Below, in pieces: positions 3,877-37,445 of a DNA stretch of 42,532 nt. The translations under genes were made by a program, and so were the position numbers. This stretch comes from Nocardioides sp. (GTDB lineage Bacteria; Actinomycetota; Actinomycetes; Propionibacteriales; Nocardioidaceae), in assembly GCA_025965125.1 (NCBI GenBank), contig JAOPXM010000007.1, positions 1 through 42,532 of the forward strand. Reading direction: 5' to 3'. Below the pieces are notes generated by a model. The model saw nothing but the letters and a program-made list of their open reading frames with translations. It ran no database searches and was not told the DNA's origin. How positions within the stretch are numbered: position 1 is the stretch's first letter; each line of letters begins with the position of its first letter.

Positions 3877-5055
3877 TCAGCGGTGGATCCGTCCCTCGGT
3901 GACGCCGAGCGGCTCGCCGCTGCCGCCCCAGCGTCCGGCGATGATCTCGGCGGCGATGCTGATCGCGGTCTCCTCCGGAGTGCGGGCTCCCAGGTCGAGG
4001 CCGATCGGGCTCGACAGCCGGGCGATCTCGGCGTCGCTCACCCCGGCCTCGCGCAGCCGGGCCAGTCGGTCCTCGTGGGTCCGACGCGAGCCCATGGCAC
4101 CGACGTACGCCACCTCCGGCAGGCGCAGGGCCACCTCGAGGAGGGGTACGTCGAACTTGGGGTCGTGGGTCAGCACCGTGACGATGGTCCGAGCGTCGAT
4201 GTTGCCGGCGTCCGCCTCGGCCGCCAGGTAGCGGTGTGGCCAGTCCACGACGACCTCGTCGGCCTCCGGGAAACGCGATGTGGTCGCGAAGACGGGCCGG
4301 GCGTCGCAGACGGTGACGTGGTAGCCCAGGAAGCTGCCCACCCGGGCCACCGCCGCCGCGAAGTCGATGGCACCGAAGACCAGGAGCCTCGGCTTCGGTG
4401 CGAACGCCCACACGAACACCCGCATCCCCTCGCCTCGCCGCTCCCCGTCGGGCCCGTAGCTCAACGTCGCGTTGTGGCCCGCCGCCAGCAGCCCGAGCGC
4501 GTCGTCGCGGACGGCGTCGTCGGCCCGGTCGGAGCCCAACGATCCGGATAGTCCGTGACGGAACTGCTGTGAATCCGGGGGATCGACGACAGTTCCGTCA
4601 CGGACTATCTCGATCTCGTCCGGACGTACCACGAGGCGGCGGCCCAGCCAGGCGGGTTCGGGATGCTCGATGACGGTGGCAAGGGCGACGGGGCGGCCGG
4701 CCTCGATGTCGGCGGCGATGTCGGCGAGCTCGGGGAACGTCTCGCGGTTCACCTTCTCGACCCAGACGTCCAGGATCCCCCCGCAGGTCAGGCCGACCGC
4801 GAACGCGTCATCGTCGGAGACGCCGTAGCGCTCGAGCACGGGCTGACCGGACTCGACCACAGACTCGGCCAGCTCGTAGACCGCGCCTTCCACGCACCCC
4901 CCGGACACCGAGCCCACGGCGGTGCCGTCCGCACCGACCAGCATCGAGGCTCCGGGTGGGCGGGGCGCGGACTGGAACGTCGCCACGACGGTGCCGACGC
5001 CGATCGTCTCGCCGGCCTCCCACCACTTCATCAGCTCGGGCAGCACGTCACGCAC
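3877..5055 (-). CDS. xdhC: XdhC/CoxI family molybdenum-cofactor insertion protein with in-frame palindrome insert
   Basis: Accessory protein that binds and sulfurates the molybdenum cofactor and delivers it to xanthine dehydrogenase/CO dehydrogenase-type enzymes. Of 392 residues, the N-terminal XdhC_CoxI domain contains SGGCVEGAVYE (about 50-60) and TCGGILDVWVE (about 90-100). The C-terminal Rossmann-like XdhC_C domain has LLVFGAIDFA, YVGAMGSRRT and DLGARTPEETAISIAAEI. Between the two domains, residues 150-170 (IVRDGTVV...QFRHGLS) are encoded entirely by the 63-bp palindromic element at 4547-4609, so the linker is longer than it would otherwise be. The reading frame stays open. The gene overlaps coxE by 8 bp and should be cotranscribed with it. 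The family call is firm; whether the insert affects function is unknown. Confidence 0.92.
   Translation of the reverse strand: MRDVLPELMKWWEAGETIGVGTVVATFQSAPRPPGASMLVGADGTAVGSVSGGCVEGAVYELAESVVESGQPVLERYGVSDDDAFAVGLTCGGILDVWVEKVNRETFPELADIAADIEAGRPVALATVIEHPEPAWLGRRLVVRPDEIEIVRDGTVVDPPDSQQFRHGLSGSLGSDRADDAVRDDALGLLAAGHNATLSYGPDGERRGEGMRVFVWAFAPKPRLLVFGAIDFAAAVARVGSFLGYHVTVCDARPVFATTSRFPEADEVVVDWPHRYLAAEADAGNIDARTIVTVLTHDPKFDVPLLEVALRLPEVAYVGAMGSRRTHEDRLARLREAGVSDAEIARLSSPIGLDLGARTPEETAISIAAEIIAGRWGGSGEPLGVTEGRIHR
4547..4609. repeat. 63-bp palindromic element, copy 1 (intragenic, in frame)
   Basis: Perfect 20-bp inverted arms (left arm GATAGTCCGTGACGGAACTG, 4547-4566; right arm 4590-4609) around a 23-nt centre. 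The centre contains a symmetric ATCC/GGAT dyad. The length is 21 codons, and the copy lies inside xdhC in the element's only open frame. Two further copies with identical arms lie at 17782-17844 and 20284-20346. Confidence 0.95.
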
Positions 5056-16206: not shown

Positions 16207-17484
16207 TCAGGCCAGGCCGGTGGCGGCGAAGGCGGCGTACGACGGATCGATGGTGGCCGCGGGACGGACGCGGTCCGAAACCGCGTCAAGGGTCTTGAGG
16301 CCGTGTCCGGTGTTGATGACGACGGTCTCGAGCGAGGTGTCGAGCTGACCGGTGTCGACGAGCTTCTTGAGCACGCCGACCGTGGTGCCACCGGCGGTCT
16401 CGGTGAAGATGCCCTCGGTGCGCGCCAGCAGGACGATGCCATCGCGGACCTCGTCGTCGGTGATGTCCTCGACGGCGCCGCCGGTCTCGCGGCAGATGTC
16501 GAGGACGTAGACGCCGTCCGCGGGGTTGCCGATGGCCAGGCTATTGGCGATGGTGTCCGGCTTCACCGGGCGGATCGCGTCGACGCCGGCCTTGTAGGCG
16601 ACCGAGACGGGCGAGCAGCCGGTGGCCTGCGCGCCGTACACCTTGTAGGGCTTGTCCTCGACCAGGCCGAGCTTGATCAGCTCCTGGAATGCCTTGTGCA
16701 CCTTGGTCAGCTGGGAGCCGGACGCGACCGGGATCACGATCTGGTCGGGCAGCCGCCAGCCGAGCTGCTCGGCGATCTCGTAGCCCAGGGTCTTGGAGCC
16801 CTCGGCGTAGTAGGGGCGGACGTTGACGTTCACGAACGCCCAGCCCTCCTCCTCGCCGGCGATCTCGGAGGCGAGCTTGTTGACGTCGTCGTAGTTGCCG
16901 TTCACGGCGACCAGCGAGTCGGTGTAGACCGCGGAGTTGACCTGCTTGGGCGTCTCGAGGTTGCTCGGGATGAACACAACCGTCTTGATGCCGGCCCGGG
17001 CGCCGGCGGCCGCGACCGCGTTGGCCAGGTTGCCGGTCGAGGGACAGGCGAAGACCTTCGAGTGGAACTCGGTGGCGGCGCTGAGCGCGCACGCGACGAC
17101 CCGGTCCTTGAAGGAGTTGGTGGGATTGGTGCTGTCGTCCTTGACCCAGAGGTTGTCGATGCCGAGGGCCTTGCCGAGATTGTTGGCCTTGAGGAGTCGC
17201 GTGTAGCCGGGCTCCATGTTCGGGCTCTGCTCGATGTCGTCGGGCACCGGCAGCAACGCCTTGTAGCGCCAGATGTTCGGCGGGCCGGCCTCGATCTGCT
17301 CGCGGGTGATCTCGGGGAAGTCGTAGGCGATCTCCAGGGGACCGAAGCACTCCGGACAGGCGTAGTGCGGGCCGAGCTCGATCTCGTGGCCGCACTCGCG
17401 GCAGGCAAGGCCGGTGGCGTGCCCGAAGGCGCCCTCACGCAGGCCGGGGGTGGTGGTTGCCTTCTCGGCGACGACGGCGCTCAT
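16207..17484 (-). CDS. thrC: Threonine synthase-family PLP enzyme; probable sulfur-carrier-dependent homocysteine synthase (MetM-like)
   Basis: Fold-type II PLP enzyme acting on O-phosphohomoserine, 425 residues. An N-terminal zinc ribbon carries Cys28, Cys31, Cys43 and Cys46 (CREC...CPEC). The PLP lysine is Lys126 in NPTNSFKDRV, and the phosphate-binding loop is PSTGNLANAVAAAGA. Standard annotation would be threonine synthase. The operon partner is a sulfur carrier, and the leader is a SAM-I riboswitch, normally a methionine-regulon device. As I recall, a Streptomyces pathway has been reported in which a ThrC homologue (MetM) and a carrier (MetO) make homocysteine from O-phosphohomoserine; this locus fits it. 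The ATG at 17484 overlaps the leader ORF stop (ATGA) and is preferred over the upstream ATG at 17553, which is too far from the ribosome site. Confidence 0.88.
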   Translation of the reverse strand: MSAVVAEKATTTPGLREGAFGHATGLACRECGHEIELGPHYACPECFGPLEIAYDFPEITREQIEAGPPNIWRYKALLPVPDDIEQSPNMEPGYTRLLKANNLGKALGIDNLWVKDDSTNPTNSFKDRVVACALSAATEFHSKVFACPSTGNLANAVAAAGARAGIKTVVFIPSNLETPKQVNSAVYTDSLVAVNGNYDDVNKLASEIAGEEEGWAFVNVNVRPYYAEGSKTLGYEIAEQLGWRLPDQIVIPVASGSQLTKVHKAFQELIKLGLVEDKPYKVYGAQATGCSPVSVAYKAGVDAIRPVKPDTIANSLAIGNPADGVYVLDICRETGGAVEDITDDEVRDGIVLLARTEGIFTETAGGTTVGVLKKLVDTGQLDTSLETVVINTGHGLKTLDAVSDRVRPAATIDPSYAAFAATGLA

Positions 17485-17570
17485 GCGGCCACACCCGCGG
17501 CGGTGGTGGCGGCGGTCGGGGCGGGCCCGGGCAAAGCGGAGCGAAGCGAGCATGTGTCTGGGGTGGTCAT
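17481..17570 (-). CDS. 29-residue leader peptide ORF before thrC/metM
   Basis: Starts at ATG 17570, five bases after the strong Shine-Dalgarno AAGGAGG that directly follows the riboswitch, and ends in TGA overlapping the thrC/metM ATG (ATGA). The ribosome site is correctly spaced only for this ORF, so translation of the downstream gene probably depends on coupling to it. The peptide begins MTTPDTCSLRSALPG and is rich in Thr and Ala (TAATTAAGVAA). Thr-codon-dependent stalling is conceivable but unproven. A small functional peptide is less likely. Confidence 0.65.
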   Translation of the reverse strand: MTTPDTCSLRSALPGPAPTAATTAAGVAA

Positions 17571-17781: not shown

Positions 17782-17844
17782 GATAGTCCGTGACGGAACT
17801 GTCGTCCTCGGGCCCGAGAAACAGCAGTTCCGTCACGGACTATG
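17782..17844. repeat. 63-bp palindromic element, copy 2 (3' of lon)
   Basis: Arms identical to copy 1 except that the last base of the right arm is G. Left arm 17782-17801, right arm 17825-17844, centre 23 nt with an inner 12-bp palindrome CTCGGGCCCGAG. It starts 15 bp after the lon stop codon and could act as a 3'-end hairpin for lon. Confidence 0.95.
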
Positions 17845-17859: not shown

Positions 17860-20175
17860 TCAGGCCGCGGCCGTCACCGCGGCTTCCTCCTGGAGGGCAC
17901 CCCGGACCACGTCGAGGACGTCGCCCACGAGGTGCACGGTGACCGTCTCGAGGACGTCGGCCGGCACGTCGTCCAGGTCTGCCTCGTTGCGTTGGGGCAG
18001 GAACACCTCGGTCAGGCCGGCTCGCTGGGCCGCGAGGAGCTTCTGCTTCACACCGCCGATGGGCAGCACCCGACCGTTGAGCGTGACCTCGCCGGTCATC
18101 CCGACCTCGGAGCGAACCGGCCGACCGGTGGCGAGCGAGGTCAGCGCGGTCACCATCGTGACTCCGGCCGAGGGTCCGTCCTTGGGTACGGCGCCCGCGG
18201 GCACGTGCACGTGGATGTCCCGGTCGAGCACCGTCGGGTCGACGCCCAGCGCCGCGGCGTGCGAGCGGACGAAGGACAGCGCGATCTGCGCGGACTCCTT
18301 CATCACGTCGCCGAGCTGCCCGGTCAGCGTCAGGCCGGGCTTGCCGTCGCTCGCCGAGGCCTCGATGAACAGGACGTCGCCACCCAGCCCGGTGACCGCA
18401 AGCCCCGTGGCCACACCCGGGACCGAGGTCCGCTCGTGCGCCTCCGGGGTGAACCGCGGACGCCCGATGAGGTCCTTGAGGTCCGGCTCGTCGACAACCA
18501 GCGACTCGACCTGTCCGGTCGCGATCCTCGTCGCAGCCTTGCGCAGCGCCTTGGCGATCAGCCGCTCCATCTGCCGCACGCCCGCCTCGCGGGTGTAGTC
18601 GGCCGCGAGCTCGCGCAGCGCCGCGTCGGTGACCGTGACCTCGTCCGGGGTGAGCGCGGCCCGCTCCAGCTGCCGGGGCAGCAGGAAGTCCCGGGCGATG
18701 GCGACCTTGTCGTCCTCGGTGTAGCCGTCGAGGGTGACCAGCTCCATCCGGTCCAGCAGCGCCGACGGGATCTGCTCGACGACGTTCGCGGTCGCGATGA
18801 ACAGCACGTCGGACAGGTTCAGGTCGAGCTCCAGGTAGTGGTCGCGGAACGTGTGGTTCTGCGCGGGGTCGAGCACCTCGAGCAGGGCCGCCGCCGGGTC
18901 ACCGCGGTAGTCGGCGCCGATCTTGTCGACCTCGTCCAGCAGGACGACCGGGTTCATCGACCCGGACTCCTTGATCGCGCGCACGATCCGGCCCGGCAGC
19001 GCACCGACGTACGTCCGGCGGTGTCCGCGGATCTCGGCCTCGTCGCGCACGCCACCCAGCGAGACCCGGACGAAGTTGCGGCCCAGCGCCCGCGCCACGC
19101 TCTCGCCGAGCGACGTCTTGCCGACACCGGGAGGACCGGCCAGCAGGATGACTGCGCCGGAGCCGCGACCGCCGATGACCTGGAGGCCACGCTCGGCACG
19201 CCGCGTCCGGACCGCGAGGTACTCCACGATCCGCTCCTTGACCTCGTCGAGACCGTGGTGGTCGGCGTCGAGGACCGCGCGTGCGGCCACGACGTCGGAG
19301 AGGTCCTCGGTGGTCACGTTCCACGGCAGCTCGAGCACGGTGTCGAGCCAGGTTCGGATCCAGGCCGTCTCCGGGCTCTGGTCGCTGGAGCGCTCGAGCT
19401 TGTCCACCTCGCGAAGCAGCGCCTCGCGCACAGCGTCCGGGACCTCGGCCGCCTCGACGCGGGTGCGGTAGTCGTCTGCGCCCTCCGGCTCGCCCTCGCC
19501 CAGCTCCTTGCGGATCGCGGCGAGCTGCTGGCGGAGAAGGAACTCGCGCTGGCTCTTCTCCATGCCCTCGCGAACGTCCTCACCGATCTTCTCGGCGACG
19601 TCGATCTCCGCCAGGTGCTCACGCGTCCAGGCGATGACGGTGTCGAGCCGCTTCTCGACGTCCGGGGTCTCGAGCAGCTCACGCTTGCGGTCGTTGGAGA
19701 GGTACGGCGCGTAGCCGGCCGCGTCCGCGATGATGCTGGGGTCGGTCAACGTGTGGACCGAGTCGATGATCTGCCAGGCCTCACGGCGCTGGAGGACCGC
19801 GACCATGAGGAGCTTGTACTCCTCGGCGAGCTCGCGGGCGCGGTCGCTGACGACATCGTCGACGGGCTCGACCTCGACCCAGAGCGCGGCTCCGGGTCCG
19901 GTGACGCCGCTGCCGATCCTGGCCCGCTGCCCGGCCTTGAGAACGGCCGCGGCCGCCCCGCCGCTGAACCGGCCGACGCGCTCGATGGTCGCGACCACGC
20001 CGTACGACGCGTAGCGGTCCTCGAGTCGGGGGGCGACGAGCAGCTTGCCGTCGCTGCTGCTACGGGCCGCGTCGATCGCGGCCTGGGATGACTCGTCGAG
20101 CTCGAGGGGGACAACCATCCCCGGCAGCACTACGAGATCGGAGACGAAGAGAACAGGGAGACGCGTGACGGACAT
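17860..20175 (-). CDS. lon: ATP-dependent protease Lon
   Basis: Cytoplasmic ATP-dependent serine protease for misfolded and regulatory proteins, 771 residues. It has an N-terminal LON substrate-binding domain (from LPVLFVSDLVVLPGMVVPLE), a coiled-coil region with EFLLRQQLAAIRKELGE, an AAA+ module with Walker A GPPGVGKT at 347-354 and VLLDEVDKIG, and a protease domain with the catalytic dyad Ser669 (KDGPSAGV) and Lys712 (GGVKQK). The ATG at 20175 starts right at the LON domain; a longer reading from 20217 runs through the HAIR operator and is unlikely. HspR control is expected from that operator. The gene is flanked on both sides by copies of the 63-bp palindrome. Confidence 0.97.
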   Translation of the reverse strand: MSVTRLPVLFVSDLVVLPGMVVPLELDESSQAAIDAARSSSDGKLLVAPRLEDRYASYGVVATIERVGRFSGGAAAAVLKAGQRARIGSGVTGPGAALWVEVEPVDDVVSDRARELAEEYKLLMVAVLQRREAWQIIDSVHTLTDPSIIADAAGYAPYLSNDRKRELLETPDVEKRLDTVIAWTREHLAEIDVAEKIGEDVREGMEKSQREFLLRQQLAAIRKELGEGEPEGADDYRTRVEAAEVPDAVREALLREVDKLERSSDQSPETAWIRTWLDTVLELPWNVTTEDLSDVVAARAVLDADHHGLDEVKERIVEYLAVRTRRAERGLQVIGGRGSGAVILLAGPPGVGKTSLGESVARALGRNFVRVSLGGVRDEAEIRGHRRTYVGALPGRIVRAIKESGSMNPVVLLDEVDKIGADYRGDPAAALLEVLDPAQNHTFRDHYLELDLNLSDVLFIATANVVEQIPSALLDRMELVTLDGYTEDDKVAIARDFLLPRQLERAALTPDEVTVTDAALRELAADYTREAGVRQMERLIAKALRKAATRIATGQVESLVVDEPDLKDLIGRPRFTPEAHERTSVPGVATGLAVTGLGGDVLFIEASASDGKPGLTLTGQLGDVMKESAQIALSFVRSHAAALGVDPTVLDRDIHVHVPAGAVPKDGPSAGVTMVTALTSLATGRPVRSEVGMTGEVTLNGRVLPIGGVKQKLLAAQRAGLTEVFLPQRNEADLDDVPADVLETVTVHLVGDVLDVVRGALQEEAAVTAAA

Positions 20176-20197
20176 TTTTGGCCCAACTTTCCGAAGA

Positions 20198-20218
20198 CCT
20201 GAGTGTTCTCGACTCAAC
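20198..20218. promoter_or_regulatory. lon: HAIR operator for HspR
   Basis: CCTGAGT-N7-ACTCAAC, against the HspR consensus CTTGAGT-N7-ACTCAAG. It lies 22 bp upstream of the lon start, a position suited to repression. Control of lon by HspR is known in Streptomyces. Confidence 0.82.
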
Positions 20219-20283: not shown

Positions 20284-20346
20284 GATAGTCCGTGACGGAA
20301 CTGTCGTCGATGGGCGCGTCGGACGACAGTTCCGTCACGGACTATC
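20284..20346. repeat. 63-bp palindromic element, copy 3 (3' of otsB)
   Basis: Arms identical to copy 1 (20284-20303 and 20327-20346) with a 23-nt centre. The first and last five centre bases (TCGTC/GACGA) also pair, making 25-bp arms here. It ends 15 bp from the otsB stop codon, between otsB and the lon promoter. Confidence 0.95.
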
Positions 20347-20361
20347 GCAAAAAACGGGACT

Positions 20362-21207
20362 TCAGGCTCGGAGCTCCCGGGCATCGGCGGTGAGCTGACG
20401 GAGCAGGTCGAGGACGCCCTCGGGGCCTTTCACGACCACGTCGGAGAGGTCGATGAGGGCGCTCTCCTCGGTGGAGGCCGAGCAGACGAGCAGCGTGGGC
20501 ATCCCGGCCCGGTCGAGGGCCCGGACCGCCTCGAACGCCTCGAGGTCACCCAGGTCGTCGCCGGCGAACATGAACGCGCCCGCCTGCAGCTCGGCCACGA
20601 TGGTCTCGACGGCCAGGCCCTTGTGCATGCCCGCCGAGCGGATCTCGATCACGTTGCGACCCGGCTCCACGATCAGGCCGTGCTGCTTCGCCAGCTCGCG
20701 GACCGCCGGCAGCAAACGCTCGAAAGCGGACTCGCGGTCGGCGAGCCGGCGAGTGTGCACCGCGACCGCCAGCCCCTTGTCCTCGACGAACGCGTCCGCC
20801 GCGTCCGCGAGCCTCAGGGTGCGGGGCAGATCCCGCTCGAAGGCCGCGAGCCCGGGCGGGGGACGCGGGGAGATCACCCGCCGGTTGGTCGAGCTCCAGC
20901 GCTCGTTGCCGTACTGGCCGAAGAGGTAGAGCTCCTTGCCCGCGTCACCGATCGCGCGGCCGACGTCCTCCAGGCCACCCAGGTCGAGCGCCTGTCGAGC
21001 GGGGCGCCCGGTGACCACGGCGATCGCGTTGACCTGTTCGGCCAGGTCGACCAGGACGTCACTCGCGTCGGGGTGGATGCGGGCCTCATCGGGATCGTCC
21101 ACGATGGGCGACAGGGTCCCGTCGAAGTCCAGCCCGACCACGGCCTCCGCCGCGGCGCGCACCAGCGCGGCGTACTTGCGCTCGCCCTCGCCAGAGGTGA
21201 ACTCCAT
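20362..21207 (-). CDS. otsB: Trehalose-6-phosphate phosphatase OtsB
   Basis: HAD-superfamily phosphatase that converts trehalose 6-phosphate to trehalose, the second step of the OtsA-OtsB pathway; otsA is at 24017 on the other strand. It has 281 residues. The catalytic motif is DFDGTLSPI (nucleophile Asp27, acid Asp29), motif II lies in VTGRPARQ, GQYGNERW is typical of the family, and motif IV is FAGDDLGDLEAFEA. The ATG at 21207 is preferred to the GTG at 21219. Confidence 0.94.
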   Translation of the reverse strand: MEFTSGEGERKYAALVRAAAEAVVGLDFDGTLSPIVDDPDEARIHPDASDVLVDLAEQVNAIAVVTGRPARQALDLGGLEDVGRAIGDAGKELYLFGQYGNERWSSTNRRVISPRPPPGLAAFERDLPRTLRLADAADAFVEDKGLAVAVHTRRLADRESAFERLLPAVRELAKQHGLIVEPGRNVIEIRSAGMHKGLAVETIVAELQAGAFMFAGDDLGDLEAFEAVRALDRAGMPTLLVCSASTEESALIDLSDVVVKGPEGVLDLLRQLTADARELRA

Positions 21208-21272
21208 GCCACAACCCAACCACGGCTGGGATCTCTGGTGTGCAGCACGTCAAAACGCGCAGGAGCGAACCG

Positions 21273-34766: not shown

Positions 34767-34790
34767 GTTTCACTGGTTAACCAGTGAAAC
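34767..34790. repeat. 24-bp perfect palindrome, copy 1
   Basis: Half-site GTTTCACTGGTT, exactly symmetric about TT|AA, 6 bp after the propeller-protein stop and 76 bp before ung. The same palindrome recurs at 37359-37384 and, with a compensatory change, at 37422-37445. It could be an operator or a 3'-end hairpin; no U-tract follows. Confidence 0.93.
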
Positions 34791-37358: not shown

Positions 37359-37384
37359 GGTTTCACTGGTTAACCAGTGAAACC
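37359..37384. repeat. 26-bp perfect palindrome, copy 2
   Basis: Half-site GGTTTCACTGGTT, the same core as at 34767-34790 with one more base pair. It is 33 bp upstream of the aldo/keto reductase start codon, a typical operator position. Its centre is 62 bp from that of copy 3. Confidence 0.93.
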
Positions 37385-37421: not shown

Positions 37422-37445
37422 GATTCACTGGTTAACCAGTGAATC
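37422..37445. repeat. 24-bp perfect palindrome, copy 3 (compensatory variant)
   Basis: Half-site GATTCACTGGTT. Against the other copies, one base changes in each arm (T to A and A to T) so that perfect symmetry is kept. It lies 19 bp after the aldehyde dehydrogenase stop. Between copies 2 and 3 there is a lesser dyad ACATGG/CCATGT at 37393-37412. Confidence 0.93.

Follow-up and report, generated by a model that had tools for sequence, protein, structure and literature searches.

63-bp palindromes of Nocardioides and their association with a divergent nuclease-like gene family

The REPs of Escherichia coli are long-known examples of repeated palindromes at gene ends, and RAYT is one enzyme class with an established link to them. 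According to the passages on REPINs in PMC3116915 and PMC3733652, the repeats of REPIN-RAYT systems are scattered inverted pairs whose ends are conserved and whose spacer is less conserved but constant in length; they are described there as mostly intergenic, often located 3' of genes, accompanied by a cognate gene that is flanked by copies, and showing signs of vertical inheritance. PMC3116915 also reports compensatory changes for its hairpins, and PMC3733652, a survey of CGTC-tagged palindromes, mentions that these are apparently without a dedicated transposase. Rickettsia palindromic elements (RPE), as outlined in the review PMC10969869, are about 150 bp long and located mostly inside open reading frames. 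Among the open-licence papers listed in literature searches, none describes such palindromes as linked to AbiEi, DUF559, or actinobacterial nucleases, or concerted evolution of the kind reported below.

The window, i.e., the whole stretch of 42,532 nt that was analysed, belongs to the genome of a Nocardioides species (referred to as G000) and contains three copies of a 63-bp element at 4547..4609, 17782..17844, and 20284..20346. No strand is assigned to them, and each consists of inverted arms of 20–24 bp around a variable centre. The initial annotation had reported three copies at these positions with invariant 20-bp arms and a 23-nt centre that differs from copy to copy. All three copies and their distinct 23-nt centres were recovered; the arms indeed agree over 20 nt, except that the last base of the 17782 copy differs. 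A search of the window for the 18-nt arm core, with up to 3 mismatches allowed, returned 6 matches, all with 0 mismatches, against 0.02 expected by chance, and the window copies are therefore not a chance occurrence.

The first copy resides in xdhC (3877..5055, minus strand; XdhC_CoxI and XdhC_C domains), in the linker between the two domains. Read in frame on the minus strand, it is translated to EIVRDGTVVDPPDSQQFRHGLS, residues 149–170, which fall between the best Pfam stretches of XdhC_CoxI (11–78) and XdhC_C (224–371), just as had been proposed. The two other window copies (17782 and 20284) are located outside genes: one is 15 bp from the 3' end of the lon protease gene (17860..20217, minus strand), the other 15 bp from the 3' end of a minus-strand gene at 20362..21219, which we take to be otsB-like, and has orthologous elements in genomes G199 and G218. 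The window also carries a SAM riboswitch (RF00162, 17581–17712, minus strand, 71.2 bits) upstream of the gene at 16207–17553, presumably resembling threonine synthase. This riboswitch is the sole Rfam match, and no Rfam family was found on the element itself at the gathering threshold in the window and in loci L068, L064, and L033.

As for the source genome (3.98 Mb in 257 contigs, 92% complete), the genome-wide arm search gave 23 paired copies, every one of them exactly 63 bp long, and frame-breaking lengths were not seen there; 2 unpaired arm matches with 3 mismatches are left out of this count. A copy is composed of the 20-bp arm GATAGTCCGTGACGGAACTG with a few substitutions, followed mostly by TCGT or CTGT and then by some 15 variable bases, after which the first half returns in mirror image. 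According to gene calls from a simple codon model trained on the window, 19 of the 23 copies begin no more than 20 nt from the stop codon of an adjacent gene, at least 5 of these overlapping it, and the others comprise one at 52 nt from a stop codon, one between divergent genes, and two inside genes. The exact arm pair is absent from the other 197 genomes of the family sample, and a scan of a named genome collection detected it in Nocardioides sp. RYN_190, the centre again being 23 nt. Derivation of the centre from the element's own flank was also considered and rejected (permutation p values of 0.13 to 0.99 over four comparisons).

Location, length, and phase were counted for 131 elements from eight genomes. 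Elements of G072, G105, G131, and G225 were fetched from exact-pattern matches, whereas for G199, G218, and G270 one mismatch was allowed in the outer 14 bases; because fetching used outer-arm patterns, identity of the outer arms is partly built in, and the inner arms are unselected. Elements between co-directional genes are the most numerous (61), followed by those between convergent genes (48), inside predicted genes (12), between divergent genes (8), and at edges (2). When a gene end adjoins the element (109 cases), the stop codon is typically no more than 25 nt away (94 of 109), and in 36 of the 109 the element's own TAG serves as the stop codon. Regarding length, 129 of the 131 elements have 63 or 64 bp (104 and 25, respectively), with one of 62 and one of 57 bp. 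The constant length had initially been taken to imply selection for length, frame, or RNA structure; the reading frame does not account for it, since the length is kept outside genes and in other species as well. By arithmetic, a length of 63 bp amounts to about six turns of B-DNA. In contig C2 of G218, elements with at most one outer-arm mismatch are absent from approximately 1.38–3.31 Mb and dense at 3.88–4.82 Mb.

All 12 copies inside predicted genes are read in one phase, and the arms leave no other open. Their hosts are xdhC in five genomes, an FO-synthase-like gene in three, and four further predicted genes of G105 and G218, with five in-gene copies in G105. In the source genome, the FO-synthase-like protein has Radical_SAM and CofH_C domains. 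The in-frame element of this gene was observed in three species (L020 1458–1520, L132 1485–1547, and L206 2073–2135), near residue 470 in the two longer open reading frames, perhaps in a linker between the two halves.

The initial annotation compared the element to the protein-invading palindromes of Rickettsia, and being read in frame inside unrelated genes is what the two have in common. An element of this type, selected for an open frame, would agree with the single phase of the 12 in-gene copies and with the five of them in G105. However, only 12 of the 131 elements are inside predicted genes, and in the source genome the coding-sequence copies number 2 of 23; furthermore, the element has 63 bp, 25 of the 131 have 64 bp, and a cognate gene is flanked by copies. 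The three copies in the window do keep the frame open, as initially stated, but 9 of the 23 in the source genome have it closed in at least one orientation, and selection for the open frame was rejected. As the main role, protein invasion is largely refuted by the location counts, and we regard it as extremely unlikely. In-frame invasion of proteins is real but rare, a tolerated by-product.

RNA folds of the three window copies are very stable (z-scores of −9.3 to −11.0), which, along with the 3'-end and convergent location, is what would be expected of RNA hairpins working as intrinsic terminators or as mRNA-stabilising stem-loops at gene ends. A T tract is missing, however: the 9 nt downstream contain 1.13 T on average (1.26 expected), and 4 or more T occur in 6 of 262 flanks. 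A stem also needs no sequence common to different loci, a terminator inside xdhC would probably be harmful, and the arms vary without compensation outside G072 and G131, two genomes that hold two subfamilies each. Outside these two, the observed agreement between the two arms is 0.629 versus 0.618 expected (30 polymorphic positions). Over all genomes (49 positions) the values are 0.687 and 0.595, the excess coming from G072 and G131. Compensatory arm pairing was thus rejected, being absent outside the two-subfamily genomes, and the hairpin explanation appears highly improbable. Since the arms vary independently, we read them as two half-sites recognised on duplex DNA rather than as partners in a hairpin.

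Similar elements are widespread in the genus. Of 147 genus genomes, 102 contain TAGTCC-N46-48-GGACTA, with 1,367 occurrences in total, in comparison with 57 occurrences of the reversed-pattern control in 42 of the 147 genomes, at most 4 in each. The pattern GATAGTCC(C/G)TGACG-N20-50-mirror is present in 25 of the 147, and among the matches listed for it nearly all have 62–65 bp, although 48–78 bp were allowed; the exceptions are found in G160 and G076 (51–58 bp) and include one 52-bp match of G263. REPs carry the tetranucleotide tag GTAG at their ends; many of the present elements end in RTAGTCC, where GGTAG copies contain GTAG and GATAG copies do not, and elements of other homologues of the gene described next have other tags.

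In several genomes, two elements about 1.2 kb apart enclose a single open reading frame encoding a protein of about 345 aa. In the source genome this nuclease-like gene occupies approximately positions 792–1859 of contig C179, between elements at 669–731 and 1875–1937, and no other gene was called between these two. This key feature is outside the window. The initial interpretation of the element is supported in part. Members of the family with about 345 aa are encoded by G000, G199, G218, G072 (twice), G105, G225 (frameshifted), G237, G238, and G204, and a five-member profile detects homologues with E ≤ 1e-10 in 134 of the 147 genus genomes. Among 50 homologue loci, 39 have palindromes on both sides, 8 on one side, and 3 on neither. 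These loci combine the 30 best scorers and 20 hand-picked ones, mostly from multi-copy genomes, with both sides flanked in 26 of 30 and 13 of 20, respectively. A palindrome of 50–72 bp is present at 86 of the 100 flanks versus 8 of 120 control flanks of other genes (Fisher p 4e-36), the control flanks being a narrow set taken entirely from xdhC loci, in which the 8 palindromes correspond to 7 distinct ones.

The two elements around a gene also match each other. For 17 genes with a TAGTC tag on both elements, the difference is 1.4 of 16 inner positions for the same gene and 8.2 for different genes. G072 has two paralogues: one is flanked by TAAATCAAGG-type elements, the common type there (14 of 17 fetched), and the second by AAATGGCCCC-type elements (3 of 17 fetched, two flanking the gene and one elsewhere). 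At least 3 TAGTCC elements are present in 86 of 134 genomes with a homologue versus 1 of 13 without (p 9e-5), the exception among the 13 being G270. The remaining 48 of the 134 homologue-bearing genomes have fewer than 3; the homologues of one of these 48, G177, have other tags, and further family members are accompanied by other tags of similar length, e.g., CGTCGTACC in G177, G230, and G233. The correlation between protein distance and inner arms is weak (Mantel rho 0.15, p 0.002), and none was found with the outer arms (rho 0.07, p 0.22).

Several individual loci are worth describing. The nuclease-like gene at L131 of G225 is split by a frameshift and its flanking elements persist, and the second homologue of this genome (L243) goes with a 57–58 bp element type. 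In G131, the pair L149, also about 1.2 kb apart, was rejected as a further case, since it encloses an unrelated gene, which looks like one for a beta-helix protein; the best homologue of G131 is L227, with palindromes on both sides. G270 contains 11 elements, and no homologue was found there. Arm decay after gene loss is unsupported, as the arms of G270 differ pairwise at 2.7 of 24 positions versus 3.9 in G199, which has the gene.

Beyond the genus, 85 of 296 genomes of the class sample have a homologue with E ≤ 1e-20, 13 of them belonging to the genus itself. For 17 loci outside the genus, palindromes were counted with a looser length criterion and without a control: 5 have them on both sides (L305, L313, L314, L326, and L327), 8 on one side, and 4 on neither (L319–L322). 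At L327, from another family of the class, the homologue is situated between 84-bp palindromes of different sequence. No relative of the nuclease-like protein was found in viral contigs, plasmids, or phages.

The identity of the protein emerges from profiles. When the first proteins were scanned singly, one Pfam match at chance level was all that Pfam and NCBIfam yielded at E ≤ 1, and no PDB match was obtained for single sequences or for the profile. Among 51 members, the best Pfam family is DUF2726 (2 members, best E-value 0.0016), with MTES_1575 matching 1 member (0.18). With the PADLOC models and a threshold of E ≤ 10, 32 of the 51 members match one AbiEi model (best 7.3e-8) and 21 match a second (best 3.5e-8). 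Alignment by hhalign with four proteins of the source genome that pass the DUF559 cut-off yields a probability of 97.7 and an E-value of 1.7e-12 over 248 columns. Within the motif PD...(E/D)YDG..H...D, residues D247, H264, and D273 are present in all 51 members and E/D258 in 49. Because single-sequence scans gave no significant family, the nuclease fold rests on the profile comparison and the motifs, which together suggest a divergent AbiEi/DUF559-like protein, a putative nuclease of PD-(D/E)XK type. The protein is thus related by profile to AbiEi antitoxins, DUF559 (PF04480), and REase-type MTES_1575 proteins, but differs from them in that the scanned members have no significant Pfam or NCBIfam match. 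As for AbiE type IV toxin-antitoxin systems, a difference is that no second gene, such as one for AbiEii, was called in the interval between the two source-genome elements.

How the arms evolve can be followed at xdhC, for which a match was found in 145 genus genomes. The best 30 of the 145 loci were compared, one of which is the window itself, leaving 29 relatives. By our criterion, a palindrome with different inner arms occupies the same site in 11 of the 29, and several relatives have the short linker alone, without a palindrome. Relative to the latter, the 21 residues initially said to be added are indeed additional, but the filled site is not unique to the source genome. The linkers of L065 and L080 look by eye like degenerate or rearranged palindromes and are left out of the 11; L080 (xdhC of G263) shows an apparent duplication of the right arm, with two mirror halves in a row. 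The xdhC arms of G199, G072, G105, and G218 resemble each genome's own set of elements. Between species with replaced inner arms, xdhC DNA is about 80–85% identical.

Comparison of the flanks of all 131 elements reveals 47 cross-species orthologous pairs at 18 distinct sites. Outside the pair G000–G199, the arms are nearer to copies of their own genome than to the orthologue in 36 of 37 pairs, with a mean distance of 7.3 of 24 positions to the orthologue versus 1.9 and 2.5 to own-genome copies; the 37 pairs are not independent, as xdhC alone provides 10 of the 47, and the nuclease-like gene itself forms one of the compared flanks at 2 of the 18 sites. For G000 and G199, the closest pair, the concerted pattern appears in 1 of 10 orthologous pairs, because a single position, base 15, accounts for most of the difference between their arms (G in 43 of 46 arms of G000, A in 26 of 38 arms of G199).

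The centres behave differently from the arms. In nine orthologous G000–G199 pairs (the tenth was dropped because one copy has 57 bp), the mean identity is 8.4 of 15 versus 5.2 for non-orthologous centres (permutation p 0.001), with per-pair values of 9, 5, 12, 8, 15, 11, 2, 2, and 12. L005 and L161 have an identical centre and changed arms. As the centre is shared by locus and the arms have changed, elements can stay in place while their arms change together. Turnover of sites looks slow: the joined flanks of four source-genome loci gave no clean empty site, and for three of these loci the matched flank has an element of G199 or G218 next to it. Direct repeats of at least 5 bases flank none of the 131 elements, and repeats of 4 bases about 1.

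These results bear on the possibility that the AbiEi-like protein acts by binding DNA as a regulator or roadblock, the elements being its operators or insulators at gene ends and the nuclease-like domain being unused there. The arm changes would then reflect co-evolution of regulator and sites. The location of 19 of 23 source-genome copies within 20 nt and of 94 of 109 within 25 nt of a stop codon is consistent with this, as are the 48 of 131 elements between convergent genes against only 8 between divergent ones, the PADLOC AbiEi matches of 32 of 51 homologues at E ≤ 10, and the description of Mycobacterium tuberculosis AbiEi as a binder of several inverted repeats (PMC7319586). On the other hand, elements are rare at promoters, the PD-(D/E)XK-like motif residues are conserved, and the inner arms have been replaced even where the xdhC DNA of two species is still so similar. 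Arm replacement between such close species is unusual for regulons. Overall, a purely regulatory role is a doubtful but serious alternative.

Another alternative is that an unrelated transposase (RAYT/Y1 or an IS) copies the elements, which would then be miniature mobile elements like REPINs, with the nuclease-like gene as a passenger. Inverted ends, a spacer that varies in sequence but is fixed in length, a location at 3' ends, and a high copy number do match REPINs and REPs as described in PMC3116915 and PMC3733652, although the agreement in conserved ends (outer 14 bp) is partly built in by the search pattern. Against it, no Y1_Tnp (PF01797) was detected at E ≤ 0.1 in the source genome (92% complete), while 8 of 14 control genomes matched; the absence of flanking direct repeats of at least 5 bases from all 131 elements, the centres that stay with the locus while arms change, and the consistent flanked gene family do not fit either. 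Copying by an unrelated transposase therefore seems unlikely. REPIN-RAYT systems also differ in the protein, which is a Y1/HUH transposase there and AbiEi/DUF559-like here, and in that the present element is a single 63-bp dyad with arms that vary independently of each other and are replaced in place, with no excision seen. Because neither the enzyme (in the source genome) nor compensatory change (outside G072 and G131) was found, the system is not filed under REPIN-RAYT. With MITEs the element shares small size, non-coding nature, inverted repeats, and multiple copies, but no target-site duplication was seen among the 131 elements and no Y1 transposase was found in the source genome, the length stays near 63 bp, and the arms change in concert.

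The explanation we favour, and hold to be rather probable, is that the element and the nuclease-like gene form a two-part system comparable in operation to REPIN-RAYT, except that the protein is unrelated and the half-sites are read at fixed spacing on duplex DNA. One part would be the AbiEi-like protein with a DUF559-type, PD-(D/E)XK-like C-terminal region, encoded between two copies; the other would be the dispersed pairs of inverted half-sites of about 24 bp, 63 bp (about six helical turns) from end to end and mostly just 3' of genes. The protein may bind each arm on double-stranded DNA as a dimer or a higher form, and the 63-bp spacing would place both arms on one face of the helix. Binding or cleavage, followed by repair or copying, might then remove ill-fitting arms, and the copies would thereby track the specificity of the protein; alternatively, selection could act at each site. 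A strong form of this mechanism is at odds with the weak correlation between protein distance and arms and with G270, whose arms are fairly similar although no homologue was found there. In-frame copies within proteins would be tolerated by-products of such a system.

A second palindrome family was observed in the window. The 20-mer TTCACTGGTTAACCAGTGAA is located at 34769–34788, 37362–37381, and 37424–37443, and the source genome has 25 copies of it within 2 mismatches, including seven places with two copies exactly 62 bp apart. At L262 of the same genome, a 78-bp palindrome with TTCACTGGTTAACCAGTGAA in it adjoins the end of the gene for an AbiEi_4/MTES_1575/DUF559 protein, in which DUF559 is the one family above its cut-off. 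The loci of two further DUF559 proteins of this genome, L264 (contig C216) and L266 (contig C145), have palindromes of 61–68 bp, and that of another, L265, has none. This suggests that the arrangement of gene and palindrome may be more general. More speculatively, and with somewhat less than even confidence, many AbiEi-DUF559 proteins of Actinomycetes could be two-part systems with private palindromes, several per genome, as the source genome seems to have with TTCACTGGTTAACCAGTGAA. In each of them a sequence-specific PD-(D/E)XK-like protein would keep dozens of half-site pairs of fixed spacing uniform throughout a genome, as it would cut or repair non-matching arms in place and leave the centres intact, a form of molecular drive.

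What appears new is that a nuclease-like protein family unrelated to RAYT is tied to its own palindromes in many species. The matched pairs of protein and site would provide a natural series for reading a protein-DNA code, and the element system may serve as a test case of how scattered sites change together.
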